Shown: positions 1 to 24,940, counted from the first letter of the stretch. The stretch is 44,632 nucleotides of DNA from Gammaproteobacteria bacterium (GCA_011052215.1 DRJK01000027.1:1-44632), one strand, 5' to 3'. The notes: generated from the sequence alone by a model not told the origin. A program made the numbers and translations.

Positions 1-179
1 GTCATGTCGACCTCCGATCCTGTTTATGAAGTGTTACAGTTTCATATTATGGCACTGGCTGCTTTGTAGCTAACCCACGTAGGACGGAGGTCGGCACCCT
101 TCAGGGGAAATCATTATGTCTAGCCATCCAAACAACCACCTGATGCCAATAGGCATACATTTGTGCTATACTGCGCACC

Positions 180-455
180 ATGAAACCAATAAATTGGAAT
201 TCGACGAAAAACCAACAGCTTATTGCTGAGCGTGGCGTTTCTTTCGAAGATGTTGTTTTCTATTTACAACAAGGTTCGTTATTGGACGATATTGAACATC
301 CGAATGGAGATAAATACCCAAACCAACGAGTATTTGTTATCAACATCGATGGCTATGTACATCTTGTGCCTTATGTCGAAAATCGAAAAGAAATATTTTT
401 GAAAACGGTGATCCCTAGCAGAAAAGCGACAAAGCAGTATCTTGGAGAAAAATGA
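180..455 (+). CDS. BrnT-like type II toxin (cassette ORF)
   Basis: 91 aa; W..K..Q.L...GVSFEDV... pattern like BrnT/DUF4258-type toxins; overlaps the following RHH-type antitoxin ORF by 4 nt. Confidence 0.7.
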   Translation: MKPINWNSTKNQQLIAERGVSFEDVVFYLQQGSLLDDIEHPNGDKYPNQRVFVINIDGYVHLVPYVENRKEIFLKTVIPSRKATKQYLGEK

Positions 456-769
456 TGAGCGATCTTAAACTTAGTAAAGAGGAAAAAGAAATCCTTAAAG
501 ATTTCGAGGCGGGTGAGTTTAAATCTGTACTCACGCCCAAGCGTAGAAAAATGCTTCAGGCTGTCGCCGAAGAAACGTTCAAAAAAGACAAACGCATTAA
601 CATTAGAATTTCTAGTCGTGATTTAGAGTCTCTTCAGAGGCGAGCGCTTGAAGAAGGTATTCCATATCAAACATTAGTATCCAGTGTACTTCACAAATAT
701 GTCTCAGGTGGTCTACATGATCTAATGGCTAACAAGGCATTCCAGCGGTCGCAAAAAACGCGCCGCTGA
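452..769 (+). CDS. BrnA/CopG-like antitoxin
   Basis: C-terminal INIRISSRDLESLQRRALEEGIPYQTLVSSVLHKYVSG is a ribbon-helix-helix-like segment typical of partners of BrnT toxins; ATGA overlap with toxin. Confidence 0.7.
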   Translation: MMSDLKLSKEEKEILKDFEAGEFKSVLTPKRRKMLQAVAEETFKKDKRINIRISSRDLESLQRRALEEGIPYQTLVSSVLHKYVSGGLHDLMANKAFQRSQKTRR

Positions 770-784
770 ATTTTATCGTTAGGC
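728..784 (+). repeat. attC-like site 1
   Basis: gctaacaaggc...CCAGCGG tcgcaaaaaacg CGCCGCTG...tcgttaggc; ends fit RYYYAAC / GTTRRRY; overlaps 3' end of antitoxin ORF. Confidence 0.7.
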
Positions 785-823
785 TCATGCAGTGAATAAC
801 TTTAACCAAAAGGAGAAATATAA

Positions 824-1312
824 ATGTCGTTAGTAATCAAAAAATGGTACGCGAGTGATGATGCGAATGAGAATAGTGACTTTGTCCATCTTGTTGGTCG
901 GGAATCTGGCATTCTTTCATGGCTTCTATCCATATTTAAAATTGACCCAACCAGCGAGATAGAGATAAAAGACAATCTTATCAAGTTCACATCATCCTCA
1001 CTTGCAGGTCAAGAGAAGAGGATCATCCCCTTGAATTCTATTTCCTCTGCATATTACGGGTATGAAAAACCATGGAAGATGGCATTAGTATTGACCGTAC
1101 TATTAACGCCAATATTCTTTATTGGCCTCATCGTTGGTCCGCTCTATTATTTTCTAAATAAAAATCTGACAGTTGGTGTGGTTGAGGCATCAGGGTGGGT
1201 TGGGTCATTTTCTTTCAAAAGATCAATTATAGAAGGGCAAAATATTAATGAAGAAGAAGCCTATAAAGTTATTGAAATAATAAGATCACTAATTGAAGCT
1301 AAAACAGCCTAA
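824..1312 (+). CDS. hypothetical cassette-borne membrane protein
   Basis: 162 aa with a strongly hydrophobic central segment (MALVLTVLLTPIFFIGLIVGPLYYFL); sits alone between two attC-like sites. Confidence 0.65.
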   Translation: MSLVIKKWYASDDANENSDFVHLVGRESGILSWLLSIFKIDPTSEIEIKDNLIKFTSSSLAGQEKRIIPLNSISSAYYGYEKPWKMALVLTVLLTPIFFIGLIVGPLYYFLNKNLTVGVVEASGWVGSFSFKRSIIEGQNINEEEAYKVIEIIRSLIEAKTA

Positions 1313-1396
1313 CAAGTGTACCAACCCGACCATTTTATACGCCGCGCCGTTTCACTCTGCTCTGTATAAAATGGCCGGTTATGCGAGACGTTAGGC
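1307..1396 (+). repeat. attC-like site 2
   Basis: gcctaacaag...CCGACCATTTTATAC...GTATAAAATGGCCGG...gacgttaggc; long imperfect stem and canonical ends. Confidence 0.85.
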
Positions 1397-1427
1397 TTAA
1401 AAAAACCATATTTGACAAATTAGAAAT

Positions 1428-1448
1428 CATATGTACACTGTACATATG
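1428..1448. promoter_or_regulatory. palindromic operator candidate of BrnTA module
   Basis: CATATGTACA-C-TGTACATATG perfect 21-bp palindrome overlapping the likely brnT start codon (ATG 1446). Confidence 0.6.
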
Positions 1449-1739
1449 AAGCATCTTAAATTCGAATGGGATAAGAAAAAAGATAAAACGAACACTAAAA
1501 AGCATGGGGTTTCTTTTGAAGAGGCTCGCACAACTTTTTATGATGAATATGCCCTTCAATTTTATGACCCCGAACATTCCGAGGACGAGGATCGTTTTTT
1601 GCTTCTTGGTTCAAGTTTTACTTTAAATACACTTATTGTTTGCCATTGCTTCAGGGTGGAAGAAACCATCATCAGAATCATATCTGCAAGAAAAGCAGAT
1701 AAAGATGAAGAACAATTTTACTGGAGTGAACAAAAATGA
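1446..1739 (+). CDS. brnT: BrnT family toxin
   Basis: MKHLKFEWDKKKDKTNTKKHGVSFEEARTTFYDE...RIISARKA is classic BrnT; ORF track starts at 1431, internal ATG at 1446 preferred. Confidence 0.88.
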   Translation: MKHLKFEWDKKKDKTNTKKHGVSFEEARTTFYDEYALQFYDPEHSEDEDRFLLLGSSFTLNTLIVCHCFRVEETIIRIISARKADKDEEQFYWSEQK

Positions 1740-1954
1740 AAGCTCATTATGACTTCTCTAAAATGAAGGGTAAAAAAAACCCATATATTAAATTCCTTAA
1801 GCAGCCAATTACTATGAGGCTTGATTGTGATTCCGTTGAATACTTCAAATCCTTATCTGAAGAAAGCGGTATCCCTTATCAAACTCTAATAAATCTTTAT
1901 TTACGTGATTGTGCTATTAACCATCGTAAATTGAAAATGAAATGGGCATCTTAA
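1736..1954 (+). CDS. brnA: BrnA family antitoxin
   Basis: ITMRLDCDSVEYFKSLSEESGIPYQTLINLYLRDCA; ATGA overlap with BrnT. Confidence 0.85.
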   Translation: MKAHYDFSKMKGKKNPYIKFLKQPITMRLDCDSVEYFKSLSEESGIPYQTLINLYLRDCAINHRKLKMKWAS

Positions 1955-1958
1955 AAAG

Positions 1959-2057
1959 GCCTAACTATTGCGTCAACCGAACAAGCAAAAACGTCACACC
2001 TTTTGCTGCCGCAAAAGCTGCGCCATTTTTTGCATACCGGTTACGGCGGGCGTTATG
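1959..2057 (+). repeat. attC-like site 3
   Basis: gcctaactattgcg...ttttgctgccgcaaaagctgcg...cggcgggcgttatgc; canonical ends, imperfect stem. Confidence 0.8.
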
Positions 2058-2087
2058 CTTTAAAAACACAAACATTGACATTTCACT

Positions 2088-2106
2088 GGTATCACATATA
2101 ATACCA
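2088..2106. promoter_or_regulatory. inverted repeat upstream of PIN/RHH TA module
   Basis: TGGTAT-cacatat-ATACCA immediately upstream of ATG 2109. Confidence 0.45.
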
Positions 2107-2108
2107 AT

Positions 2109-2534
2109 ATGGCTCGCTCAATTATCATAGATACATGTGTATTTATATCAGCTTTACGCTCACGTAACGGTGCGTCATTTAAATTGCTATCATTAATTGA
2201 TAGCAATAAATTTACTTACAATTTATCAGTACCCTTGGTTTTAGAGTATGAAGCTGTAGCAAAGCGTATATCCCGCTCTATAGGACTTACACACTCGGAT
2301 ATCGATGGTATTATTAATTATTTATGCACTATGGGGCGGCATAGGCAAGTTCATTACTTATGGCGTCCTAATCTAAAAGACCCAGGTGATGACTTTGTTC
2401 TTGAATTGGCGGTAGAGTCAGAAAGTGATTATATAGTCACTCACAACCTACGCGATTTTTCAAATATAAGTAAATTTAATATTAAGGCAATAACCCCAAA
2501 AGAATTACTTCAAATAATAGGTGAACTATCATGA
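2109..2534 (+). CDS. putative TA toxin component, PIN family
   Basis: IIIDTCVFISALRSRNGASFKLL...DYIVTHNLRDFSN; PIN-domain acidic residues. Confidence 0.85.
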   Translation: MARSIIIDTCVFISALRSRNGASFKLLSLIDSNKFTYNLSVPLVLEYEAVAKRISRSIGLTHSDIDGIINYLCTMGRHRQVHYLWRPNLKDPGDDFVLELAVESESDYIVTHNLRDFSNISKFNIKAITPKELLQIIGELS

Positions 2535-2767
2535 GCACAATAAGTTTAAGGCTTCCTGACTCACTTCATGAAAGTGTTAGGGAGTTAGCCAAGCAAGACA
2601 ATATCTCAATCAATCAGTTTGTTGCAACTGCTTTAGCAGAAAAAATGTCTGCACTTGTAACGGAAAAATACCTGTCTGAACGAGCTAATAAAGGCACTAA
2701 AAGTAAATTTAAAACCGCCCTTTCTAAAATAAAAAATATTGCTCCCGATGAAAATGATGCTCTATAA
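2531..2767 (+). CDS. HicB/RHH-type antitoxin
   Basis: ISLRLPDSLHESVRELAKQDNISINQFVATALAEKM; ATGA overlap with PIN toxin. Confidence 0.8.
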   Translation: MSTISLRLPDSLHESVRELAKQDNISINQFVATALAEKMSALVTEKYLSERANKGTKSKFKTALSKIKNIAPDENDAL

Positions 2768-2772
2768 AAAAT

Positions 2773-2818
2773 GCAAAACAAGTGCCACTTTAAATCGTCC
2801 GTGAGCAAGGCGTTATGT
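2773..2818 (+). repeat. short/degenerate attC-like site 4
   Basis: gcaaaacaagtgcc...gcaaggcgttatgtg; shorter than the other sites and weak stem. Confidence 0.45.
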
Positions 2819-2880
2819 GTTGACAAGCCGAATCGATGCCACTAAAGTAATACCATTACCTTATCGATGAGGCGTGAATA

Positions 2881-3087
2881 ATGAGAGCCGTAACAGTTTC
2901 CCCTAAATTTCAAGTAGTTATCCCTAAAGAAGTAAGAGATTCAATGGGGATAGTTTCAGGACAAAAAATACAAATGCTTACCTATCGCAACCGTATAGAA
3001 CTGATTCCCATCAAGCCAATGAACAAAATGAAAGGATTCTTAAAGGGAATTGATACCGAAGTGAAGCGAGAAAAAGATCGTATATGA
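2881..3087 (+). CDS. AbrB/MazE-like antitoxin
   Basis: MRAVTVSPKFQVVIPKEVRDSMGIVSGQKIQML = SpoVT/AbrB fold. Confidence 0.88.
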   Translation: MRAVTVSPKFQVVIPKEVRDSMGIVSGQKIQMLTYRNRIELIPIKPMNKMKGFLKGIDTEVKREKDRI

Positions 3088-3467
3088 ATGTCATAGATTC
3101 CTCAGCATGGCTATCTTATTTTGCTGGTGATGCTAATGCGAAAATATTTTCACGTCCGATAGAAGATATTGAAAAATTAATTGTTCCTAGCATTACCATA
3201 ACCGAAGTTTTTAAATGTATTATTCGACAGCGTGGTGAGGACATGGCATTAGAAGCAATTGCCCATATGGAACAAGGTCAGGTTATTGCTTTAGATGGAT
3301 CTTTGGCTATTGATGCAGCCCAGTATGGAATTGAATACAAATTGCCATTGGCAGATAGCATAATCTACGCAACAGCAAAAAAATTTGATGCGTTAATATG
3401 GACTCAAGATATTGATTTTAAGCCACTGGAAGGTATTAAGTATTATTCAAAGAAAAAAATCACATAA
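3084..3467 (+). CDS. vapC: VapC-like PIN-domain toxin
   Basis: MNVIDSSAWLSYFAGD...LPLADSIIYATAKKFDALIWTQDIDF. Confidence 0.88.
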   Translation: MNVIDSSAWLSYFAGDANAKIFSRPIEDIEKLIVPSITITEVFKCIIRQRGEDMALEAIAHMEQGQVIALDGSLAIDAAQYGIEYKLPLADSIIYATAKKFDALIWTQDIDFKPLEGIKYYSKKKIT

Positions 3468-3565
3468 CAAACTCATCCAGAGGACTTTCAAACCTGTCGC
3501 GTCTTTTGCAAAAAAAACCGCAAAATTCCCGCCAGCTTTGAAAGCCCCTGATGAAAGCGTTAGCA
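3464..3565 (+). repeat. attC-like site 5
   Basis: ataacaaactcatcCAGAGGactTTCAAA...TTTGAAAgccCCTGatgaaagcgttagc; canonical ends and long imperfect stem. Confidence 0.8.
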
Positions 3566-3568
3566 ACG

Positions 3569-3588
3569 GTATGGCTATTTAGCCATAC
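3569..3588. promoter_or_regulatory. palindromic operator candidate of BrnTA module
   Basis: GTATGGCTA-TT-TAGCCATAC perfect palindrome ~20 bp upstream of brnT start. Confidence 0.6.
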
Positions 3589-3606
3589 ATAGTCTATACT
3601 TATCTC

Positions 3607-3897
3607 ATGAATGAACAGAGTTTTGAGTGGGGTGAAGCCAAAAATCTAGAAAACAAGCAAAAACATAGCGTTACGTTCTATGAGGCACAATACGCCTTTT
3701 TAGATCCTAATCGTGTTATTGCTGAAGATTTAAATCATAGTCAGGAAGAGCAGCGCTACTATTGCTTTGGCATAAATGAGGAAGGAAATGGAATTCTGAC
3801 TGTTCGCTTTACATGTCGATCTGGCAACATTCGAATTTTCGGTGCAGGTTATTGGCGAAAAGGTAAAAAAATCTATGAACAAGCAAATTCAATATAG
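3607..3897 (+). CDS. brnT: BrnT family toxin
   Basis: FEWGEAKNLENKQKHSVTFYEAQYAFLDPNRVIAEDLNHSQEEQRYYCFG; BrnT pattern. Confidence 0.87.
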   Translation: MNEQSFEWGEAKNLENKQKHSVTFYEAQYAFLDPNRVIAEDLNHSQEEQRYYCFGINEEGNGILTVRFTCRSGNIRIFGAGYWRKGKKIYEQANSI

Positions 3898-4117
3898 TGA
3901 AGAGCCTATTGGTGAAATTAAATTAATTTCTGATTTTCTACCATCACCAGAGGAACTTGCACTTAAAACAAAAAATACAAAAGTTACAATATCACTCAGC
4001 ACGGAAAGTGTTGCCTATTTTAAAGCAACAGCAAAAAAGCATCACATGCAGTATCAAAAAATGATACGACAATTACTTGATGATTATGTGGAACATCAAA
4101 AAAGTGCTAACAAGTAA
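3875..4117 (+). CDS. BrnA-like antitoxin
   Basis: VTISLSTESVAYFKATAKKHHMQYQKMIRQLLDDYV; ORF track starts 3842 but ATG at 3875 gives a short overlap with brnT. Confidence 0.8.
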   Translation: MNKQIQYSEEPIGEIKLISDFLPSPEELALKTKNTKVTISLSTESVAYFKATAKKHHMQYQKMIRQLLDDYVEHQKSANK

Positions 4118-4192
4118 ATCAACCGGGCAATTATTTCAGTGGGCAGCTTTTTGCCCGCTGAAATAATTGCCCGGTTATTAGATCGTTATGCG
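4106..4192 (+). repeat. attC-like site 6
   Basis: gctaacaag...CCGGGCAATTATTTCAGTGGGCAgctttTTGCCCGCTGAAATAATTGCCCGG...gatcgttatgc; very long near-perfect stem. Confidence 0.85.
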
Positions 4193-4197
4193 TAAAA

Positions 4198-4590
4198 TTA
4201 GCACACTGAGTGCAACCTTAAATGCTTAACGAATGGTAAAAAATCCTTATCTGTAAATAACAAAGGGATTTTATTTTCAATACAATATGTAGCAATTATT
4301 ACATCGGCCGTTTTTCTAATTGTGATGCCTTTTTTTCTCAATTTTCGAAAATTATTTGCGCTTTTAATAGCTAATTCGACACCAAGTAATTCAAAAATAG
4401 TCAATGAAGTTAAAACTTCTTTGGCAATCCTAAATTCTTTATCAACCTTAAAACCTTGTAATACTTCTGTTAATATCAAGTCGCCAATTACTACTTCTTC
4501 AAGCCCTAGCGTGGTATCAAGTTTGTTGGTTTCTTCATTCTCTGTACCATTGAAATAGTCAATCCATACACTAGAGTCAACTAATATCAT
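4198..4590 (-). CDS. vapC: VapC-like PIN-domain toxin
   Basis: MILVDSSVWIDYFNGTENEETNKLD...TADVIIATYCIENKIPLLFTDKDF. Confidence 0.9.
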   Translation of the reverse strand: MILVDSSVWIDYFNGTENEETNKLDTTLGLEEVVIGDLILTEVLQGFKVDKEFRIAKEVLTSLTIFELLGVELAIKSANNFRKLRKKGITIRKTADVIIATYCIENKIPLLFTDKDFLPFVKHLRLHSVC

Positions 4591-4781
4591 TTTATAGATC
4601 TCATATCGTCAAGGTCACCATTCCATTTTAACTTTCCTCTAAGCGATCTGATAGAACCTTGTTTATTTAGCTTAATCAATGCCTTAAGTCCCAATTCTAC
4701 CGCTTCCTTTTTTGTACCAAGCCCCGTTACTTTTAAAGCATCTGCCATTAAACTATCATCTATTTCAATATTTGTTCTCAT
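4587..4781 (-). CDS. vapB: VapB family antitoxin
   Basis: MRTNIEIDDSLMADALKVTGLGTKKEAVELGLKALIKLNKQGSIRSLRGKLKWNGDLDDMR. Confidence 0.9.
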   Translation of the reverse strand: MRTNIEIDDSLMADALKVTGLGTKKEAVELGLKALIKLNKQGSIRSLRGKLKWNGDLDDMRSIK

Positions 4782-4794
4782 TGCAATACCTCAA

Positions 4795-4822
4795 TGTGTA
4801 TAATATTATCAATATATACACA
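4795..4822. promoter_or_regulatory. inverted repeat upstream of vapBC (minus strand)
   Basis: TGTGTATA...TATACACA. Confidence 0.5.
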
Positions 4823-4836
4823 CTGTAGCAACAGAA

Positions 4837-4922
4837 CACATAACAAGCAAATAAACACGGACAATTATTTCAGCGGGCAAAAATCACCCACTGAAATAAT
4901 CGCCGGTTATTAAAAACGTGAC
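4837..4922 (+). repeat. attC-like site 7 (degenerate right end)
   Basis: acataacaagcaaataaacaCGGACAATTATTTCAGCGGGCAaaaatcacCCACTGAAATAATCGCCGGttattaaaaacgtg; same core as site 6. Confidence 0.65.
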
Positions 4923-4947
4923 TACCTAAATAGCAATTATCTCTTCT

Positions 4948-4968
4948 ATAGCATGGAAGCCGTGCTAT
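4948..4968. promoter_or_regulatory. inverted repeat upstream of higBA
   Basis: ATAGCA-tggaagccg-TGCTAT just before the higB start. Confidence 0.45.
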
Positions 4969-4969
4969 C

Positions 4970-5272
4970 ATGTTAAATATGATTGCTTCTTTCAAAAATC
5001 AAGCAAGTGAAGATATATTTAATGGCAAAAACACAAAAAGTGCTAGAAAGCTTTGTCCCCAGTCACTTTGGAATGTAGCAACGAGAAAACTTGATCAACT
5101 GGATTCAGTTTTAAATATAGAGGAACTAAAAGTGCCACCTGGTAATCGTATTGAGAGTCTGTCAGGTAATAGAAAATGAGAATTCAGCATCAGGATCAAT
5201 CAACAGTACAGAATATGTTTTAAGTGGAGCGAATCAGGCCCATCAGAAGTTGAAATTACTGATTATCACTAA
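4970..5272 (+). pseudogene. higB: HigB-like toxin interrupted by in-frame TGA (5177-5179)
   Basis: Before stop: MIASFKNQASEDIFNGKNTKSARKLCPQSLWNVATRKLDQLDSVLNIEELKVPPGNRIESLSGNRK; same frame after stop: [30 protein letters not shown], the conserved HigB C-terminus. Confidence 0.85.
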
Positions 5273-5283
5273 GAGATATCAAT

Positions 5284-5598
5284 ATGCGTATCCCGACACA
5301 CAGAGAACCCATGCATCCTGGCGAAATGCTTAGAGAAGAATTTCTTATTCCAATGAAGATTAGTCAGCGTGACTTAGCTGATGCAATTCATGTTCCCTAT
5401 CAGCGTGTAAATGAACTTATAAATAAAAAAAGAGGGCTTACACCAAGCACAGCCTTGCGTTTAGCCAAGTTTTTTGGTGTGTCTGCTGATTACTGGTTAA
5501 ATTTACAAATACGTTGTGATTTATATCGAGCACAAGAAGCTGAAAAAAAGGATATTAGTTCGATAAAAGGTTTTCGTAAATTTAAAAAGATGGTATAA
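5284..5598 (+). CDS. higA: HigA family addiction-module antitoxin
   Basis: MRIPTHREPMHPGEMLREEFLIPMKISQRDLADAIHVPYQRVNELINKKRGLTPSTALRLAKFFGVSADYWLNLQ. Confidence 0.93.
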   Translation: MRIPTHREPMHPGEMLREEFLIPMKISQRDLADAIHVPYQRVNELINKKRGLTPSTALRLAKFFGVSADYWLNLQIRCDLYRAQEAEKKDISSIKGFRKFKKMV

Positions 5599-5758
5599 GT
5601 GGGTCAACATGGACGGGCAATTCTGCTATGGTAAATGGGGTCATATATAATTTATACTTGTTCTGGCTATCCCTTCGGTAGGTGCCATTGGGGTCAGGAC
5701 ACAGTTGTTGCTGATAATAGCGGAAACTGTGCCCCGGGAGGTTAAGCAGAATGACGGA

Positions 5759-7708
5759 TTACTGATTGGCCCGGTTTTCCACCAGATCTTGAACCACTCC
5801 CGGGTCTGCCAGGGTGGATGTGTCGCCGAGGTTATCGACATCATTTTCTGCTATCTTTCGCAGTATGCGCCGCATAATTTTGCCTGAACGTGTCTTGGGT
5901 AGCCCAGGTGCCCACTGGATGATATCGGGTTTGGCAATCGAGCCGATTTCAGAACGAACCAGATTAATCAGTTCCTGCCGGAGTTCCTCACTGGGATCGA
6001 CGCCGATGATCGGGGTAACATAGGCATAAATTCCCTGTCCCTTGATTTCATGCGGGTAGCCGACTACTGCGGCTTCGGCAATGGATTCATGCAGTACCAG
6101 TGCACTTTCGATTTCGGCGGTTCCCATGCGATGCCCCGAGACATTGAGAACATCGTCCATACGCCCTGTAATCCAGTAATAGCCGTCCTTGTCACGTTTC
6201 GCGCCATCACCACTGAAGTAATAACCGGGATAGGTTTTGAAGTAGGTATCGAAGAAGCGCTGGTGATCACCGTAGATAGATCGCATCTGGCCGGGCCAGG
6301 GGGTGGTTATGACCAGTGCGCCGCTTGCCTCACCCTCACCTTCGATAAGTTTATTGGTGTTGGTATCAATAATACCCGGAGTAACACCAAAGAAGGGCCG
6401 TGCTGCCGAACCGGGTTTCAGTTTTGTAGCGCCGGGAAATGGCGTCAGCAGGTGTCCACCGGTTTCGGTTTGCCACCATGTATCGACAATGGGACAGCGT
6501 GAGTCGCCTACCACCTTGTGGTACCACTGCCAGGCTTCCGGGTTAATGGGTTCGCCTACGGTGCCCAGAATACGAAGGCTTTTTCTTGATGTTGCTTTTA
6601 CCGGCCCATTGCCTTCACGCATCAATGCCCGGATGGCAGTGGGCGCAGTATAGAAAACCGTGACCTGATGTTTGTCTACCGATTTCCAGAAACGTGAGGC
6701 ATCGGGGTAGTTCGGTACACCTTCAAAAAATACCGTTGTTAATCCGTTCGCCAGCGGGCCGTACATCAGGTAGCTGTGGCCGGTTACCCAGCCGACATCG
6801 GCAGTGCACCAGAAAATATCATCGTCATGCAGGTCAAAGGTATATCTGGTTGTGATGGCTGCATAGAGCAGATAACCCCCGGTTGTGTGTAATATCCCTT
6901 TTGGCTTCCCGGTTGACCCTGAAGTGTAAAGTATAAACATCGGGTCTTCTGCATCCATTTCCTCGGGCGGGCAATCGGCTGATGCCCCGGTCATGGCATT
7001 GTGATACCAGACATCACGTTCGTCATGCCAGTCAATCTCGCCTCCGGTTCTTTTTACAGTCAGCACAGTGTGAACATTCGGGCAGCCCTTCATGGCCATG
7101 TCTGTATTGGACTTCAGTGGCACAGTTTTGCCGCCACGTACCCCTTCATCGGCAGTGATGACAACCCGGCAGTCGGAGTCGAGGATACGGTCCTTTAATG
7201 ATTCAGGCGAGAAACCGCCGAACACAACCGAGTGTACGGCTCCGATGCGGGTACAGGCCAGCATCGCATAACCGGCCTCCGGGATCATCGGCATGTAGAT
7301 GCAAACACGATCTCCCTTTTTTACACCGCGTGATTTTAAAACGTTGGCAAGTTTGCTGACATGCTGATGCAGTTCCCTGTAAGTAATGTTCCGGTCATCA
7401 TTGATGTCATCACCTTCCCATATGATGGCAACCTTGTCGGCATTTTTTTCCAGATGGCGATCTATACAGTTATAACTGACATTCAGTTTGCCGCCCTCAA
7501 ACCATTTGATGTGCAGGTCACCGGCGTTAAAACTCCAGTCCAGAGTCGTATCCCAGGGTTTGAACCAGGTCAGAAATTCATTCGCCTGTTCAGACCAGAA
7601 AGATTCAGGATCATCAATCGAATGTTGATACATTTGCTGATACGTCTTTTCATTAATGAAGGCGTTGTCAGCGATATTGGAAGGGATGTCATAGAGTTTT
7701 TCAGACAT
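5759..7708 (-). CDS. acs: acetyl-CoA synthetase (AMP-forming)
   Basis: MSEKLYDIP...; [77 protein letters not shown] track extends to 7795, ATG at 7708 preferred. Confidence 0.96.
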
Positions 7709-7855
7709 GGATGACTCCTGGAATTTATTATTGTGAATCTGTGAAATGATATCATTTTGCTTGATTACGGGCCTGTGATCAATCTCTATATTCAAGGAAC
7801 CCTGATTTATATTTTACTGGACGGGATGTGCCAATGATTGTGAAGCTCCCCGGAT

Positions 7856-14564: not shown

Positions 14565-17500
14565 ATGCGTTTAAATAAAATAAAGTTAGCCGGATTCAAA
14601 TCATTTGTCGACCCGACCACGGTACACATTACCAGTAACCTGACAGGTGTTGTAGGCCCGAACGGCTGTGGAAAATCAAATATTATCGATGCAGTGCGCT
14701 GGGTTATGGGTGAAAGCTCGGCCAAGCATTTACGTGGTGAATCCATGGCAGATGTCATATTCAATGGTTCCAGCAGCAGAAAACCGGTAGGGCAGGCAAC
14801 GATAGAGCTGCTTTTTGATAATTCGGAAGGTAGCCTGGGTGGTCAATATGCCGGCTTTAATGAGATATCAATCAAAAGGCAGGTGACGCGGGATGGTCTT
14901 TCGCAGTATTACCTCAATGGTGCGCGCTGCCGCCGCCGCGATGTAACGGGTATTTTTCTGGGAACCGGGCTGGGGCCCAGAAGTTACTCGATCATCGAAC
15001 AGGGTATGATCTCGCGTCTGATCGAGGCAAAGCCTGAAGAGTTGAGAGTATTCTTTGAAGAAGCAGCTGGTATTTCGAAGTACAAGGAACGCAGGCGTGA
15101 GACAGAGACCCGGATCAGGCATACACGCGAGAACCTTGATCGACTGAATGATTTGCGTGAGGAGCTCGACAAACAGTTACAACACCTGAACCGTCAGGCA
15201 AGAACGGCTGAAAAATACAAGCATCTGAAAAAGGAAGAACGTTTAAGCAAGGCAGAACTCATTGCATTGCGATTGAAATCACTGGATGAAGAGGCAATCA
15301 AGCAACAGAAAGAGATCAGCGAGCGGGAAACAGCCCTTGAAGCTGCCAGGGCCGGGCAGCAGTCTATAGAAACCGCCATGGTTAAAGAGCGCGATACATA
15401 TACTGATGCGACCGACGTGTTTAACCAGATTCAAACCCGGTACTATGGTCTGGGCAGTGATATTGCCCGCGATGAGCAGGCCATCCAGTATGCGCGTGAA
15501 ATGCGTCGTAACCAACAGAGTAATCTGGAACAGATCGACAGTAGCTGGAAGGATATCAGGCAACATATCGAAGTAGATGAAAAACAGATCGCTGATCTGA
15601 ATGAAGAGCTCAGGCAACTGGGCCCACAACTGGATGAGACAAGAAGTGAAAGCGGCCAGTCCAGTGAAGCCTTGTCCAATGCAGATGAGTTAATGCTTCG
15701 ATGGCAAAAGGAATGGGATGAATTTAATCAGAAATCATCCGTACCTTCGGAAGAGGCACAGGTTCAGCGAACCAGAATCGAACATCTGGAGAGTCAGATT
15801 GTTCAGGGTCAGCAACGACAGGAACGCATACTGGCACAATTAAAGGAAGTGGATGTCGAGCAATTCAATGATGATATCTCGGAACTTGAAAAGGAAAATA
15901 CGGAAAGATCCGGAAACCTCGAGCAACAACAGGCTCGCCTGGATAATACAAAAGAGCAGATCTTTCAGTTGCGCACACACAATGAGGGCCTGGCACAGGA
16001 TACAGATGATGTCAGAGGCAGATTACAAAACCTTCAGGGAAGATTGAGTTCACTTGAAGCCTTGCAGCAGTCAGCGCTGGGACAGTCTGATGACAAAGTC
16101 ACACAATGGCTGGAAGATCATAACCTGAAGGATGCCCCAAGACTCGTTCAGAAACTGGAAGTCGAGAATGGATGGGAGACAGCAGTTGAAACCGTAATGG
16201 GTCTGAACCTTGAGGCCGTTTGTATTGATGATTTCAATTCTGTAGCAGATTTGCTGGATAATCTTGATGAAGGATCGGTTGCTTTCTTTGATAAACAGAC
16301 AGCCCGGGGCGCAGGAGCTGGAAACAGTTTTGCCAATCCGCTGTCAGACTACGTCAAGTCTCCCTGGCCACTGGAGTCACTCCTGTCGGGTGTTTATGCC
16401 GTTGCAGACATAACACAGGCACTCACGGTCAGGGACAGGTTGAAGGAACACGAGTCAGTGATTACCCCAAAAGGGGTATGGCTTGGCAAGTCCTGGGCCA
16501 GATTAATCAGAGGGGATGGTGAACGGTCAGGGGTCATTGCCAGAGAACAGGAAATCAAAAATCTGGTTGTCGAGACCGGCGGGCTTGAATCCAGCCTCGC
16601 TGAACTGCAAGCTCGTCTGGATAATGACGTAAAAAGACAACGCGAATTTGAAGAAGACAGAGAAGTTCAGCAGCAGGAATTGAATCAGGCACTCCGTGAG
16701 CAATCTGATACCCAGTCCAGATTGAATACAATGTTGTCCAGGCTGGAACATGTTAAAACAAGACGGCAGACACTCCTGAGTGAACAGCAGGAAATCCAGA
16801 AACAGATAAGTGCAGACGGTGAAATTCTGAAGGCCGCACGCCGCCAGCTAAACACGGCACTGGAGAGTATTAATCTGTTTTCAGTTGAAAGAGAATCGCT
16901 TGCCAGCAAACGGGATACCCTGAAGCAGGAACTGGAAATCCTGCGACAAAAAGCAAAAGAAAATCAGGACAAGGTACATGGACTCGAGCTTCAACACCAG
17001 GCCAGGAGTAACCAGCTATCATCAACCGAACAAAACCTGTCGCGCATGCAGACACAGATAGAGACACTTGGGCACAAACGGGAAGAATTGTTGTCAACAC
17101 TTGAAAACAGTCTTGAACCAATACGTGAGCAGGAAGCGCGCCTCGAAAAATTATTGGGTCAGCGGGTTCAGGTTGAAGAAGAACTCTCGGCTGCACGTAA
17201 ACGCCTGGAAGATATTGATTCATTAATCCGCAAGCTTGAAGGCGATCGACATGAAGCGGAAGACAGGGTACAGGATGTGCGTGGTACTCTTGAGCAGGCG
17301 AAAATGGTCTGGCAGGAATTCAATATCAGGGCAAAAACGCTCAAGGAACAACTGGATGAAACCGGATTTGAACTGAAGTCCTTGCTTGATGCTCTTGATG
17401 AAAATGCATCTGTCGAAAGCTGGCAGGAGCAAGTGGACAAACTGGAACGCAGGATCCAGCGTCTGGGTCCAATCAACCTTGCAGCAATAGATGAATTTGC

Positions 17501-18077
17501 CGAACAGTCAGAACGCAAGGAATATCTGGATACACAATATGTTGACGTCACCTCGGCCCTGGATACGCTTGAAAATGCAATTCGTAGAATCGACAAGGAA
17601 ACCAGAACACGATTCAAGGAAACATATGACAAGGTTAACAGTGGGCTGCAAAAGCTTTTCCCTCGCGTCTTCGGGGGTGGTCATGCCTATCTTGAATTGA
17701 CCGGTGATGACTTGCTCGATACCGGTGTCACTGTCATGGCACGTCCCCCCGGCAAGCGCAACAGTTCTATTCATATGTTATCCGGTGGTGAGAAAGCATT
17801 AACCGCAGTTGCACTTGTTTTTGCAATATTCGAACTGAACCCGGCCCCTTTCTGTATGCTGGATGAGGTGGATGCACCACTGGACGATGCCAATGTGGGC
17901 CGGTTTTGTGAGCTGGTGAAAGAAATGTCTGAAACAATCCAGTTTATTTTTATTACGCATAATAAAGTGACCATGGCCATGTCCAACCAGCTCTCCGGTG
18001 TCACTATGCATGAACCCGGTGTGTCACGAATGGTGTCGGTGGATGTTGAAGAGGCAGTCAAGCTGGCCGCCATGTAA
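14565..18077 (+). CDS. smc: chromosome segregation protein SMC
   Basis: MRLNKIKLAGFKSFVDPTTVHI...GVVGPNGCGKSNIIDAVRWVMGESSAKHLRG...LSGGEKALTAVALVFAIFELNPAPFCMLDEVDAPLDDANVGRF. Confidence 0.98.
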   Translation: MRLNKIKLAGFKSFVDPTTVHITSNLTGVVGPNGCGKSNIIDAVRWVMGESSAKHLRGESMADVIFNGSSSRKPVGQATIELLFDNSEGSLGGQYAGFNEISIKRQVTRDGLSQYYLNGARCRRRDVTGIFLGTGLGPRSYSIIEQGMISRLIEAKPEELRVFFEEAAGISKYKERRRETETRIRHTRENLDRLNDLREELDKQLQHLNRQARTAEKYKHLKKEERLSKAELIALRLKSLDEEAIKQQKEISERETALEAARAGQQSIETAMVKERDTYTDATDVFNQIQTRYYGLGSDIARDEQAIQYAREMRRNQQSNLEQIDSSWKDIRQHIEVDEKQIADLNEELRQLGPQLDETRSESGQSSEALSNADELMLRWQKEWDEFNQKSSVPSEEAQVQRTRIEHLESQIVQGQQRQERILAQLKEVDVEQFNDDISELEKENTERSGNLEQQQARLDNTKEQIFQLRTHNEGLAQDTDDVRGRLQNLQGRLSSLEALQQSALGQSDDKVTQWLEDHNLKDAPRLVQKLEVENGWETAVETVMGLNLEAVCIDDFNSVADLLDNLDEGSVAFFDKQTARGAGAGNSFANPLSDYVKSPWPLESLLSGVYAVADITQALTVRDRLKEHESVITPKGVWLGKSWARLIRGDGERSGVIAREQEIKNLVVETGGLESSLAELQARLDNDVKRQREFEEDREVQQQELNQALREQSDTQSRLNTMLSRLEHVKTRRQTLLSEQQEIQKQISADGEILKAARRQLNTALESINLFSVERESLASKRDTLKQELEILRQKAKENQDKVHGLELQHQARSNQLSSTEQNLSRMQTQIETLGHKREELLSTLENSLEPIREQEARLEKLLGQRVQVEEELSAARKRLEDIDSLIRKLEGDRHEAEDRVQDVRGTLEQAKMVWQEFNIRAKTLKEQLDETGFELKSLLDALDENASVESWQEQVDKLERRIQRLGPINLAAIDEFAEQSERKEYLDTQYVDVTSALDTLENAIRRIDKETRTRFKETYDKVNSGLQKLFPRVFGGGHAYLELTGDDLLDTGVTVMARPPGKRNSSIHMLSGGEKALTAVALVFAIFELNPAPFCMLDEVDAPLDDANVGRFCELVKEMSETIQFIFITHNKVTMAMSNQLSGVTMHEPGVSRMVSVDVEEAVKLAAM

Positions 18078-18121
18078 AAGAGAAGCATGGGCAGGTTGGC
18101 AGATAATGGAAGAGTAAACTC

Positions 18122-18832
18122 ATGGATACCTTGAGATGGGGGTTGCTGCTGACCGGAGTAATAGTATTTTTACTGATATACCTGTTCAGTCGTAGTAAAT
18201 TTTCCGCAAAAAGAGAACGCCCGGTAGACCGGTTTTCATCCGACGTTGTTATAGACGAGGAATTCGGGGTTGCCAATGTTGATGACGATCCACGTACACT
18301 CGATACACTTGCCAGAAACATACAGCTGGATGCCGGTAATCAGGTGGATGACAGGTTATCTGACAAGCAGTCAGACAATATAACCGGTTCCGATAAAGAA
18401 AAGCTGATCGGTTTCTATCTGGTTGAAAAAGAAGGCAACATGTTGAACGGGGCAGACATTATCGATGCGCTGGAGAAGGTCGGCCTCAGGTATGGAGATA
18501 TGAAAATATTTCATTACTACGGAGTTGATCAACAGAAAACAACCCGGCCTGTTTTCAGTGTAGCCAGCCTTGTAGAACCGGGCTGGTTTGACCTCATATC
18601 AATCAACAGCATGACAACGCCAGGTTTGACACTATTTATGAACCTGCCAGGCCCGCTTGGTTCGGTGGCGGCCTTTGATGGACTGCTGTCAGTTATTAGC
18701 CAGTTGAAGAGCCTGTTACCCGTAACGCTGAAGGACAGACAGCACAATAATGTATCCAATCAGATACTGACTCATATGCGTGAAGAGGTTGTTGAATTTG
18801 ATCGTATGAGAGCTATTCAGGGAAAGGGGTGA
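18122..18832 (+). CDS. zipA: cell division protein ZipA
   Basis: N-terminal TM plus C-terminal FtsZ-binding domain (LIGFYLVEKEGNMLNGADIIDALEKVGLRYGDMKIFHYYG); lies between smc and ligA. Confidence 0.9.
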   Translation: MDTLRWGLLLTGVIVFLLIYLFSRSKFSAKRERPVDRFSSDVVIDEEFGVANVDDDPRTLDTLARNIQLDAGNQVDDRLSDKQSDNITGSDKEKLIGFYLVEKEGNMLNGADIIDALEKVGLRYGDMKIFHYYGVDQQKTTRPVFSVASLVEPGWFDLISINSMTTPGLTLFMNLPGPLGSVAAFDGLLSVISQLKSLLPVTLKDRQHNNVSNQILTHMREEVVEFDRMRAIQGKG

Positions 18833-19162
18833 TCCCGTCGACCCGTCGGATTCGGGATGGTCTTGATGTGGTAAAATGTTAGCCCGTTTTATTACTTTTT
18901 ATTCTTGATATAATTATAACCAGGTAAACCATCGCCACAGGCGGTGAGGTACAAAGAGGCTCTGCCGTTACGGCATGTAAAGAGATAGCTGCAAATGGAC
19001 GCAAATATTGATAATGTTTATTTGTGTTCATACGTGGCCAATCAAGGTTTTAAGAAATATAATAATGGCAAGTATTTGCGGCTAATGAGTTTTAATGGTT
19101 TTTAATATTTACTTTCATCTGCGGCTGGATTATGGGTTTGAACAGTATAATGAGATACATAA

Positions 19163-21241
<2,079 letters not shown>

Positions 21242-21242
21242 T

Positions 21243-22193
21243 ATGGTTGGCACGATAAAATATCTGTGTCTGGCTATTTTATTCGTTTTGCCGAATGTGA
21301 CTCATGCGGCAAAGTGCCTTTATGTTTCATCCTACCATCAAGGCTATGAGTGGAATGATGGAATAGAAAAGGGCCTGGAAAAAGAGTTGGCCGGGCGATG
21401 CGAGCTAAAAAAGATTTATCTTGATACCAAACGAAACCCGAAAAAAGAATGGGCGAGATGGAAGGCCAAACAGGCATACCAGGTTATTACAGAATATAAA
21501 CCTGATGTTGTTATCGTTTCTGATGATAATGCATCGCGTTATCTTGTTATGCCTTATTTAAAAAACAAGGATATTCCTGTTGTCTTTTGCGGGCTGAACT
21601 GGAGCATGAAAGAATATGGATATCCATACAAAAATATAACCGGTATGATTGAGATAGCACCGATCAAACCACTTATCAAGGAACTAAAATTATTAAGTCG
21701 AAAACCCGGGAGAGGTCTGTATTTATCCAGTGATGTTATAACCGAACACAAGGATTACAGTTATTATAAAAAAGTTTTTTCCAAAAATGGCATCAAGCTC
21801 GATGCGGTTTTCGTCAGAAGCTTCAGGCGATGGATTAGCGAATTCAGAAAGGCCCAGCGTTACGATTTTGTTTTTCTCGGCAACAATGCGGGGATTAACG
21901 ACTGGTATAAACCCGAAGCAATCAGAATTGTAAATAAATATACAAAAAAGGTGGGGGTAACAACCTATAAATGGATGCTTCCTTATGTTTCTCTGGCCCT
22001 GACCAAAATACCCGAGGAACAGGGAGAATGGTCAGCCAGGGCGGCATTGTCTATTCTGGATGGAATGAGCCCGTCACAAATTCCGATCGTTTACAACAGG
22101 TACTGGGATATATGGATTAACCTGTCATTAATCAGAAGAATAAAACTGAAACTCCCTTATGCCTTATATAAAAGGGCCAAGCAGTATCGTTAG
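21243..22193 (+). CDS. periplasmic ABC-type substrate-binding-like protein
   Basis: Signal peptide; AAKCLYVSSYHQGYEWNDGIEKGLEKELAG...PDVVIVSDDNASRYLVMPYLKNKDIPVVFCGLNW; type-1 periplasmic binding fold. Confidence 0.8.
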   Translation: MVGTIKYLCLAILFVLPNVTHAAKCLYVSSYHQGYEWNDGIEKGLEKELAGRCELKKIYLDTKRNPKKEWARWKAKQAYQVITEYKPDVVIVSDDNASRYLVMPYLKNKDIPVVFCGLNWSMKEYGYPYKNITGMIEIAPIKPLIKELKLLSRKPGRGLYLSSDVITEHKDYSYYKKVFSKNGIKLDAVFVRSFRRWISEFRKAQRYDFVFLGNNAGINDWYKPEAIRIVNKYTKKVGVTTYKWMLPYVSLALTKIPEEQGEWSARAALSILDGMSPSQIPIVYNRYWDIWINLSLIRRIKLKLPYALYKRAKQYR

Positions 22194-22195
22194 GA

Positions 22196-24940
22196 ATGGT
22201 TATGAAAGCGATAAAAATTCCATTGAAAGTATTTCTGTTGACGTTGTCAGTAACCATTCTGATGCTGGGCATAGCGGTGGGATTGCTGGTGTGGAAGGAT
22301 TACCAGTCGGCTGAATTTAATTTCAGAAAAGAGTCAGGTAGAATTCATGAGACATTATCACGAAATATTATTAACATTGATTCTGTATTAAGTGGTTTTG
22401 CTGCTTTACATAATGCCATAGAGCTGGTTGATGCTGACCAGTTTTCACAGTATGCACGACATATTCTGAAACATTATCCACTTATTTATTCAATCAAGCT
22501 TCTTGGTAAGGTGGAAAAAAACTTCAGGGAGCAGTTTACCGAGAAAATACGTGAAGAAGGATTTCCGACATTTGAAATAAAGGAAGGAAAACGGAGTGAT
22601 CCTTCAGGCTGGAAGCTGGCTACTTCACGGCCTGTGTATTTCCCAATTACGGCTATTGAGCCGATGTTACCAAGCAGAATAGCGGAAATAGGTTTCGACC
22701 TGAATTCAGATGTAAAGTATCGAGATGTAATCAGATCGGCCATTGAGTCGGGTAATGCATCCTCAGTCTCAACCTATTTACCGGGTAGAGGTGATGGTTA
22801 TATGGTTTTTATGCCTATTTATGCAGGCCGCATACCGCCAGAGAACACTTATGACAGAAAGTCACAGATTCTTTATCTGATTTCAGTGGAGATATTGGCC
22901 AGGGATTTGTTGGCAGGGGTAAAAATTACACCAGGCTTCAATGTTGTTATCTACAAAAAAAATGAGAAACTGCGTGGTTTGAACCGGATAATTCATTTAT
23001 TCCATAATAAAAATATAAAAGAAGGTAAACCTGAAAAAGATGAGTTCAGGTATGACAAGGTTGTTAACATAAATGGTCAGTCAATTCTGCTCTCAATTTC
23101 TTATCCTGTAAGCTATGAGATATTTGGCTCAAAAAAAATAGTTACGACATTCCTGATTTGGGGTGCTTTTGTAATACTTATTCTCTATATATTCAACACA
23201 CATTATGCGAGGCTGGCAGAACGTGAAGAATCACTGTATGCATGGCAGCGGGAGAAGGAGCGGGCCGACGTTACATTGCATTCACTTGCGGACGCAGTTA
23301 TAACAACAAATCTTAATGGTGTTGTTGAATACATGAATCCGGTCGCAGAGAGGCTGACTGGCTGGAAGGCAGCTGATGCGAAAGGCCATGGTATTGAAGA
23401 TGTATTTGTTCTGGTCGATGAGGCAAGCGAAAAGAAAATAACCAGTCCGGCCATCGAGTGTATACAGCGTGGTGTCATGAAGAAATCGGATGCAGATATT
23501 TCGCTTGTCCAAAAAGATGGTGAGTATTGTTCTGTCGATTATTCTATCGCTCCTATGTATGGAAACCAGAATATGGTGTTGGGTGCAGTTCTTATTTTTC
23601 AGGATGTAGGTGCATCACGCATGATGTCAAAGTTACTTGAATACCAGGCAACACATGATGACCTGACTGGCCTTTATAACAGGAGAGAATTTGAGAAGAG
23701 GATGTCCAGGGCGATGGAAAGGGCGTTCAAGCATAATGATCACTACATCCTGATGTACATGGATCTTGATCAGTTTAAGGTAATCAATGATACCTGTGGT
23801 CATGTGGCGGGGGATGTGGTGCTGAGACAAATTACAGAGCTGACCAAACCCCATTTGATGAGCAGAGAGATCATGGCGCGGCTGGGCGGTGATGAATTTG
23901 GTTTGCTACTGGAGGGATATTCACTGAAAGAAGCAAATAAACTTGCAAACAAACTTCTGAAGACAATCCGGAAATACCGCTTCCAGTGGACCGACAAGAT
24001 ATTCGAGATTGGTGTGAGTATCGGGATTGTTGACATTGATTCTGATATGCAGTCAATCAGTAATGTCATGAGCTATGCCGATGCGGCTTGCTACATGGCA
24101 AAAGAAATGGGCGGTAACCATATCCAGGTTTATCAGATGGATGATGATGATTACAAGCATCGGAAAGATCAGATGAACTGGGTACAGCGTATTACCCAGG
24201 CATTTACTGATAACAGGTTTATTTTGTATGCCCAGAAAATTGTTCCATTGCAGGTAGCATCTGATGAAGAGCATTACGAGATTTTGATGAGAATGATTGA
24301 TGACAATGGAGATATCATTGTACCACAGGATTATATTATTGCTGCCGAGCGGTACAGGACGATGAAAGACATTGACAGGTGGGTTATACGTAATTCCTTT
24401 ATTAAAATTAACAAGTACCTTGGCCTTATGAGCGGAGACCCGTCCCTGCCCGTAAAAATGTTTTCCATTAATATTTCAGGTCAGACCTTGAGCAGTCAAA
24501 AGGAACTTGAGTATGTAAGGGAACAATTGCTGGAGTACACGGGGATCAGTCAATATATTATTTTTGAAATAACGGAAACCGCTGCCATCTCCAATCTTGT
24601 CAGTGCCCAGAAGTTTATCGATGAATTCAGGGGAATGGGGGTTAGATTCTCACTTGACGATTTCGGCACGGGTGTAAGTTCATTTAATTATCTTAAAAAT
24701 CTGAAAGTTGACTACCTTAAAATAGATGGAGGCTTTGTCAGGGAGATGATGGAAGATACTGTCGACTATGCTATGGTCAAGTCGATTGCACATATAGGCA
24801 GTGTTATGGGAATAAAAACAATTGCGGAGCATGCCGAAAAAGAGATTATATGTGATAATTTACGTGAAATGGGTGTTGACTATGCGCAAGGGTTCTATCT
24901 GCATGAACCTGAGGACCTGAAAAATATAATCAGTTCGTAG
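22196..24940 (+). CDS. CHASE-like/PAS/GGDEF/EAL c-di-GMP signalling protein
   Basis: TM-bounded sensor N-terminus; PAS (ITTNLNGVVEYMNPVAERLTGW); GGDEF (MARLGGDEFGLLLEG); EAL-type (HYEILMRM, NISG, EITE, DDFGTG, KTIAEHAE). Confidence 0.94.
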   Translation: MVMKAIKIPLKVFLLTLSVTILMLGIAVGLLVWKDYQSAEFNFRKESGRIHETLSRNIINIDSVLSGFAALHNAIELVDADQFSQYARHILKHYPLIYSIKLLGKVEKNFREQFTEKIREEGFPTFEIKEGKRSDPSGWKLATSRPVYFPITAIEPMLPSRIAEIGFDLNSDVKYRDVIRSAIESGNASSVSTYLPGRGDGYMVFMPIYAGRIPPENTYDRKSQILYLISVEILARDLLAGVKITPGFNVVIYKKNEKLRGLNRIIHLFHNKNIKEGKPEKDEFRYDKVVNINGQSILLSISYPVSYEIFGSKKIVTTFLIWGAFVILILYIFNTHYARLAEREESLYAWQREKERADVTLHSLADAVITTNLNGVVEYMNPVAERLTGWKAADAKGHGIEDVFVLVDEASEKKITSPAIECIQRGVMKKSDADISLVQKDGEYCSVDYSIAPMYGNQNMVLGAVLIFQDVGASRMMSKLLEYQATHDDLTGLYNRREFEKRMSRAMERAFKHNDHYILMYMDLDQFKVINDTCGHVAGDVVLRQITELTKPHLMSREIMARLGGDEFGLLLEGYSLKEANKLANKLLKTIRKYRFQWTDKIFEIGVSIGIVDIDSDMQSISNVMSYADAACYMAKEMGGNHIQVYQMDDDDYKHRKDQMNWVQRITQAFTDNRFILYAQKIVPLQVASDEEHYEILMRMIDDNGDIIVPQDYIIAAERYRTMKDIDRWVIRNSFIKINKYLGLMSGDPSLPVKMFSINISGQTLSSQKELEYVREQLLEYTGISQYIIFEITETAAISNLVSAQKFIDEFRGMGVRFSLDDFGTGVSSFNYLKNLKVDYLKIDGGFVREMMEDTVDYAMVKSIAHIGSVMGIKTIAEHAEKEIICDNLREMGVDYAQGFYLHEPEDLKNIISS

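Follow-up and report, generated by a model that had tools for sequence, protein, structure and literature searches.

A chromosomal gene-cassette array rich in toxin-antitoxin modules at a contig end of a gammaproteobacterial draft genome

What kind of element strings together small toxin-antitoxin (TA) operons, separated by attC-like repeats, on a bacterial chromosome with no integrase gene in sight? The question is raised by one end of a contig (C27; DRJK01000027.1) of a Gammaproteobacteria bacterium (GCA_011052215.1; here G000), the draft genome of which comprises 2.61 Mb in 183 contigs. We analyzed a 44,632-nt stretch (G000:C27:1-44632; hereafter, the window) together with the other contigs of the genome and three congeners (G001, G002, and G003). 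An earlier note, made from the sequence alone, had read the region as an integron array with TA cassettes, and this description is borne out by matches to an attC model, folding of the sites, cassette shuffling, and an integron integrase (IntI) encoded elsewhere in the genome. The region is almost certainly an integron cassette array on which the resident IntI acts or has acted. The best explanation overall, to which we assign a probability of about 0.75, is that it represents the distal end of a chromosomal array of the integrase-less type (cluster of attC sites lacking an integrase; CALIN), with IntI acting from a locus beside uvrD.

Searches of Rfam at gathering scores gave no matches within the window, and we therefore built our own attC covariance model. 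With it, six of the seven attC sites proposed in the earlier note were recovered, all on the plus strand. Because this model included window sites, an independent scorer was also made, consisting of a two-arm position weight matrix (PWM) from 17 congener attC sites only, with 30 shuffled strands as the null. The results are given below, together with z-scores for bottom-strand folding against dinucleotide shuffles.

727..784, plus strand: attC 1; covariance model 39.9 bits, PWM 33.6, fold z -2.8
1307..1396, plus strand: attC 2; 56.7 bits, PWM 40.9, fold z -2.6
1959..2058, plus strand: attC 3; 69.3 bits, fold z -2.6; 86% DNA match to an attC-like site in G002 (C137)
2773..2819, plus strand: claimed attC 4; unsupported, with no covariance-model match, fold z +1.0, and no stem; an R'-like GTTATGT is present
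3462..3565, plus strand: attC 5; 70.5 bits, fold z -7.1; 76-86% DNA matches to attC sites of C53 and C78
4105..4191, plus strand: attC 6; 59.8 bits, PWM 42.3, fold z -9.5
4838..4924, plus strand: attC 7; 46.1 bits, PWM 31.9, fold z -6.1; 85% DNA match to an attC in G003 (C20)

With the congener PWM, the sites at 728, 1308, 4106, and 4839 scored 31.9-42.3 against a best shuffled score of 21.7. Those at 1960 and 3463 scored 16-20, within the tail of the null, but shuffles of these two folded less well than the sites themselves (z -2.6 and -7.1), and both sites were 76-86% alike in DNA to other attC sites. Folding z-scores for the six supported sites ranged from -2.6 to -9.5, and alignment of the attC sites revealed the canonical order of R'' (CTAACAA), L'' (TCAACC), a variable stem, L' (CGGTTA), and R' (CGTTAGGC). 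Sites 6 and 7 are 83% alike and the other window sites are diverse; DNA comparison with the three congeners showed that attC families are common to members of the genus. The site claimed at 2773 is, at best, a stemless remnant. When the covariance model was run over the whole genome (E<0.01), matches outside the window fell on C53 and C78 only, comprising three further attC sites. The last attC of C78 (L019, 1225-1345) is split by a ~110-bp element resembling a miniature inverted-repeat transposable element with terminal inverted repeats GGGGACGTAACTATTTTAT. On C89 (L018, 1-406), a BrnTA cassette is followed by an attC that is cut ~13 bases in, with chromosomal sequence directly after.

Pfam analysis of the genes between these sites confirmed the families previously proposed, i.e., TA modules in six of seven units and a HigBA pair behind them, with a weak BrnT match in cassette 1 and a truncated HigB. 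The order is BrnTA-like, membrane-type protein, BrnTA, PIN_3/RHH, AbrB-type/VapC, BrnTA, VapBC (on the minus strand), and HigBA.

180..769, plus strand: cassette 1; BrnT-like toxin (180-455) and CopG/BrnA-like antitoxin (452-769)
824..1312, plus strand: cassette 2; 162-aa protein with membrane-type hydrophobic stretches
1431..1954, plus strand: cassette 3; BrnT toxin (1431-1739; PF04365, 92.7 bits) and BrnA antitoxin (1736-1954; PF14384, 35.4 bits)
2109..2767, plus strand: cassette 4; PIN_3 toxin (2109-2534; PF13470, 71.2 bits) and RHH/HicB-like antitoxin (2531-2767; PF05534, 31.8 bits)
2881..3467, plus strand: cassette 5; AbrB/MazE-type antitoxin (2881-3087; PF04014, 33.6 bits) and VapC PIN toxin (3084-3467; PF01850, 56 bits)
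3607..4117, plus strand: cassette 6; BrnT toxin (3607-3897) and BrnA antitoxin (about 3842-4117), both by Pfam
4198..4781, minus strand, opposing the array direction: cassette 7; VapB (4587-4781; PF09957, 61.9 bits) and VapC (4198-4590; PF01850, 42.8 bits)
4970..5179, plus strand: terminal HigB toxin (PF05015, 30.1 bits), with an in-frame stop after 69 aa
5284..5598, plus strand: terminal HigA antitoxin, intact (PF01381, 43.9 bits)
5596..5625, plus strand: candidate truncated attC behind HigA, GGTCAACATGGACGGGCAATT, read by eye only and resembling the L'' arm of attC 6 and 7

The cassette 1 toxin matched PF04365 at 32.3 bits (E 1.3e-7), under the curated cutoff of 34.5, and its antitoxin matched PF12441 at 29 bits. 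No Pfam, NCBIfam, or PADLOC matches were found for the cassette 2 protein, and PADLOC returned no defence matches for ten array proteins. The array thus has toxin and antitoxin genes of recognized families lying side by side, as expected of type II TA systems; HigBA qualifies in part only, HigB being truncated. HigB-like sequence continues past the in-frame stop, and the gene is either a pseudogene or the product of an assembly error. Because a stretch like an L'' arm sits behind HigA, HigBA was probably once a cassette as well.

Cassettes of this array have moved. The VapBC cassette (cassette 7) has a 90% identical partial copy on C53 with a different upstream attC, and homology between the two begins at window position 4184 (C53 position 182), at the R' core box CGTTATGC; this is one clear case of the breakpoint expected from IntI-mediated mobility. 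Cassette 6 has an 89% identical partial copy on C89, and an 81% identical copy of cassette 1, with homology starting at 139, lies at another locus among other neighbors in G002 (C137). For the remaining array genes, no DNA matches were found in the three congeners. Cassettes of at least four contigs (C27, C53, C78, and C89) run into different chromosomal genes. The earlier note had suggested a comparison of relatives for cassette gain or loss, and this showed that gene order is not conserved, that the locus is without an array in the three congeners, and that cassettes shuffle. Cassette counts leave out a BrnTA relative on C63, a pair that has no attC. In G003 (L097, L099, L100, and L101), cassettes are dispersed over many chromosomal places, including one beside mnmE, and carry GFA, GNAT, MAPEG, and cupin genes with few TA modules.

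The array had also been described as lacking a visible integrase, which holds for the window but not for the genome. Outside the window, contig C119 encodes an IntI that matches the IntI-specific model TIGR02249 at 441.9 bits (cutoff 265), aligns along its full length with IntI4 of V. cholerae (2a3v; E 9e-92), and conserves the catalytic positions R, K, H, R, H, and Y. The nearest named relatives of G000 by IntI are metagenome-assembled genomes labelled Thiotrichales, Chromatiales, and Pseudomonadota. In all four species (G000, G001, G002, and G003), uvrD directly follows intI. A contig ends near the other side of intI in all four genomes, with C119 breaking inside intI itself, and in G001 a cassette with attC lies on that other side.

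The IntIs of G001 and G003 are ~465 aa long, with ~150 residues ahead of the usual core-binding domain. An extension of this length is seen in the IntIs of L042-L044, L045, and L047 and is covered by no Pfam family. An AlphaFold IntI model from three sequences was poor overall (pLDDT 57.6), and only N-terminal helices were used. In the low-confidence L044 protein model, the extension forms helices at 5-19, 24-40, 51-63, and 69-86, and the core-binding helices lie at 146-158, 163-179, 190-202, and 208-225. Because the two sets have the same spacing, the modeled extension suggests a duplicated core-binding domain. These longer IntIs (L042-L044, G001, and G003) have the same domain order plus the extension, with palindromes upstream of intI in most; the G000 copy differs in being cut by the contig end, which leaves the full extension out of view.

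Where, then, does the array sit? On its left side the window is bounded by a contig end, and the array runs on beyond the visible part of C27; because the window begins there, an integrase falls outside it. The GC content of the array is 0.35-0.38, as compared with 0.41-0.51 in the rest. Its two visible edges are as follows:

1..139, plus strand: partial cassette/attC tail cut by the contig end, with an inverted repeat near 8-22 / 81-95 and an R'-like ATTATGT near 113-119, as read from the sequence; the attC model gave no match on 1..139
5759..7795, minus strand: acs (acetyl-CoA synthetase; PF00501), the first chromosomal gene past the array

Further along (14565-24940), the window encodes SMC, an NAD-dependent DNA ligase, and a CHASE-GGDEF-EAL protein, all ordinary chromosomal genes. 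In G001, G002, and G003, a cupin gene, pnp, and rpsO come after acs, and integron cassettes are absent. In G000, acs is on C27 and pnp-cupin on C127, and the two contigs end facing each other. At C127:90-108 we found an attI-like site, TCTGCCAAATAAACTGTTG, with one mismatch from a motif drawn from intI-adjacent sites of relatives. It is the genome's best match to that motif, and local alignment of the bases around it with regions upstream of intI gives somewhat higher scores than alignment of shuffled sequence. An attI-like core stands beside intI in G001, G003, L042, and L043; C119 itself ends inside intI. The search of other contigs for intI and attI that the earlier note had advised thus yielded an IntI on C119 and an attI-like site on C127. 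A tblastn search detected no decayed intI in C127, and no intI was found on C27 or C127, the stretch between both contigs being outside view. With six attC sites and no intI on either contig, the array fits the definition of a CALIN (at least two attC sites, intI not nearby), and it appears to have been inserted between the cupin gene and acs, with an attI-like head and without intI.

Two more attI-like heads without intI occur in G003, at C20:1524-1542 and C30:23639-23657, each followed by attC cassettes; the loci holding the three heads (G000 C127, G003 C20 and C30) are L062, L096, and L108. The two G003 sites resemble each other over ~100 bp. Pattern matches that differed at two positions (G000 C36, G002 C63, and G003 C6) did not rise above the level of a reversed-pattern control and were discounted. 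Palindromes of the type TTAGGCAGAATTCTGTCTAA adjoin the attI-like core in G003 (L047, from 12475), L042 (141-158), L043 (367-382), L044 (~7670), and C127 (128-147), and G001 and the intI-less G003 copies have other palindromes at the equivalent place; these are possibly IntI accessory sites or operators of a regulator. Among the papers searched, we found none on attI sites without intI. An fbp-like gene of G003 had no match in G000, which is uninformative.

Taken as a whole, these observations are best accounted for if a chromosomal cassette array has its distal end at positions 1 to about 5600, each unit being a cassette in which an attC follows one or two genes. The array would most likely be an integrase-less cluster inserted between acs and cupin-pnp. 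The reason for placing it at a second site is that intI lies beside uvrD in four species and the array lies between acs and cupin-pnp. The earlier note had called the array typical of a sedentary chromosomal integron; the conserved intI position that marks such integrons exists at the uvrD locus, but the array, by synteny, lies elsewhere, which points to the CALIN type. As judged from the sequences, IntI produced at uvrD would recognize attC in its folded, bottom-strand form and cleave it at the R' box, and cassettes may thereby be excised, duplicated, and re-inserted. Several points weigh against this explanation. One claimed attC (2773) fails the tests, the R' box of the last attC is degenerate (GTGAC), and the covariance model was trained partly on the window's own attC sites. 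Additionally, the evidence for the C127 attI-like site consists of a short motif and local alignments with modest scores, and the presumed linkage of C27 and C127 depends on congener synteny, with the array cut by contig ends on the attI side. Finally, HigB is truncated and a RelE on C53 is frameshifted, so that not every TA cassette is able to hold the array.

The array is probably separate from the intI locus. If it were instead contiguous with intI, C119 and C27 would be parts of one sedentary integron split by assembly only, and the contig ends do lend themselves to this: C119 breaks inside intI, C27 begins inside the array, contigs end near intI in the congeners too, and integron repeats break assemblies, integrons being split in draft genomes (PMC9024848). 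We nevertheless consider this unlikely, since in the three congeners acs is beside cupin-pnp with intI beside uvrD on another contig, the expected partner of C27 is C127 with its attI-like site rather than C119, and at least four contigs leave cassettes into differing chromosomal genes, indicating more than one array. A more elaborate arrangement, which we put forward tentatively and hold to be improbable, is a distributed integron in which a single IntI at uvrD, its N-terminal core-binding domain apparently duplicated, would serve several arrays, each with an attI-like head lacking intI (C127; G003 C20 and C30), and in which ageing arrays would shed ordinary cassettes and keep TA modules. Far less credible is a defence or genomic island that is rich in TA modules and involves no integron recombination, its inverted repeats being terminators or unrelated palindromes. 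TA genes do cluster in islands, and attC 7 is overlapped on the minus strand by two predicted terminator-like elements; yet the R''/L''/L'/R' boxes recur in canonical order between units and are common to the genus, a cassette breakpoint falls at a core box, the genome has a full-strength IntI, and PADLOC gave no matches.

Why the array is so rich in TA modules is a separate matter. TA modules make up six of the seven attC-bounded units in the window (one boundary being the unsupported 2773 site), as compared with two of about 22-23 units in congener arrays (BrnTA in G002, ParDE in G003). The difference (Fisher p about 3e-4) is indicative only, since unit boundaries were set by hand, the units are not independent, and unknown open reading frames (ORFs) were scored as non-TA. 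The high share might reflect sampling of a few units at one array end rather than selective retention, whichever account of the array is adopted, and we rate this as possible at somewhat less than even odds. Only about 12-15 cassettes are visible in G000, with array interiors missing, which favors sampling; the contrast with the congeners and the predominance of TA modules in the other visible G000 units (C53, C78, and C89) argue against sampling. Among the genus members compared, toxin richness is specific to G000.

Three promoter-like sites with a perfect TTGACA, at 1412, 2075, and 2820, fall in the intervals that separate an attC, or the 2773 remnant, from the TA operon that follows:

1412-1439: promoter-like TTGACA-16-TACACT ahead of cassette 3
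2075-2102: promoter-like TTGACA-16-TATAAT ahead of cassette 4
2820-2848: promoter-like site ahead of cassette 5

A weaker promoter-like site occurs at 143, before cassette 1. The count of such matches in the whole region (28, with 19.5 expected) is weak by itself. Three or four TA operons may have their own promoter-like site just after the upstream attC. Were a TA cassette lost, toxin would remain with no new antitoxin being made, so that TA cassettes would resist loss while other cassettes drop out, and an ageing array could become enriched in TA modules. This last step extrapolates from published work on V. cholerae, where TA cassettes have their own promoters and "cassette loss killing" is described (PMC11023631).

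The closest parallels are known integrons. As in Xanthomonas, where CALINs occupy several loci apart from the ilvD integron (PMC12444791), the G000 array has several attC-bounded cassettes away from intI, and intI is kept at a single conserved locus (uvrD in this genus, ilvD in Xanthomonas). It differs in that its content is nearly all TA, competitive-exclusion functions, TA among them, being 4.9% of cassette proteins in Xanthomonas (PMC12444791), and in that its opposite flank has an attI-like site. With the chromosomal superintegron of V. cholerae it shares attC-bounded cassettes, TA modules with their own promoters, and an IntI of the same family (2a3v); the visible array is short, and its TA share of 6/7 contrasts with 19 of 179 cassettes in V. 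cholerae (PMC11023631). TA genes are common in integrons, with BrnTA and HigBA among the integron-borne modules listed (PMC7370490). The modules resemble known type II operons (BrnTA, VapBC, PIN/RHH, and HigBA) in being pairs recognizable by Pfam, and depart from them in the cassette 1 toxin, just below the BrnT cutoff, and the truncated HigB.

The element is therefore of a known kind, and its least ordinary aspects are the TA share and the attI-like array heads without intI. For the view that TA cassettes persist in integron arrays because they resist excision, it is an extreme example provided by nature, and it can be compared with TA-poor arrays of the same genus. If the intI-less attI-like heads are genuine, cassette capture would extend beyond the intI locus.

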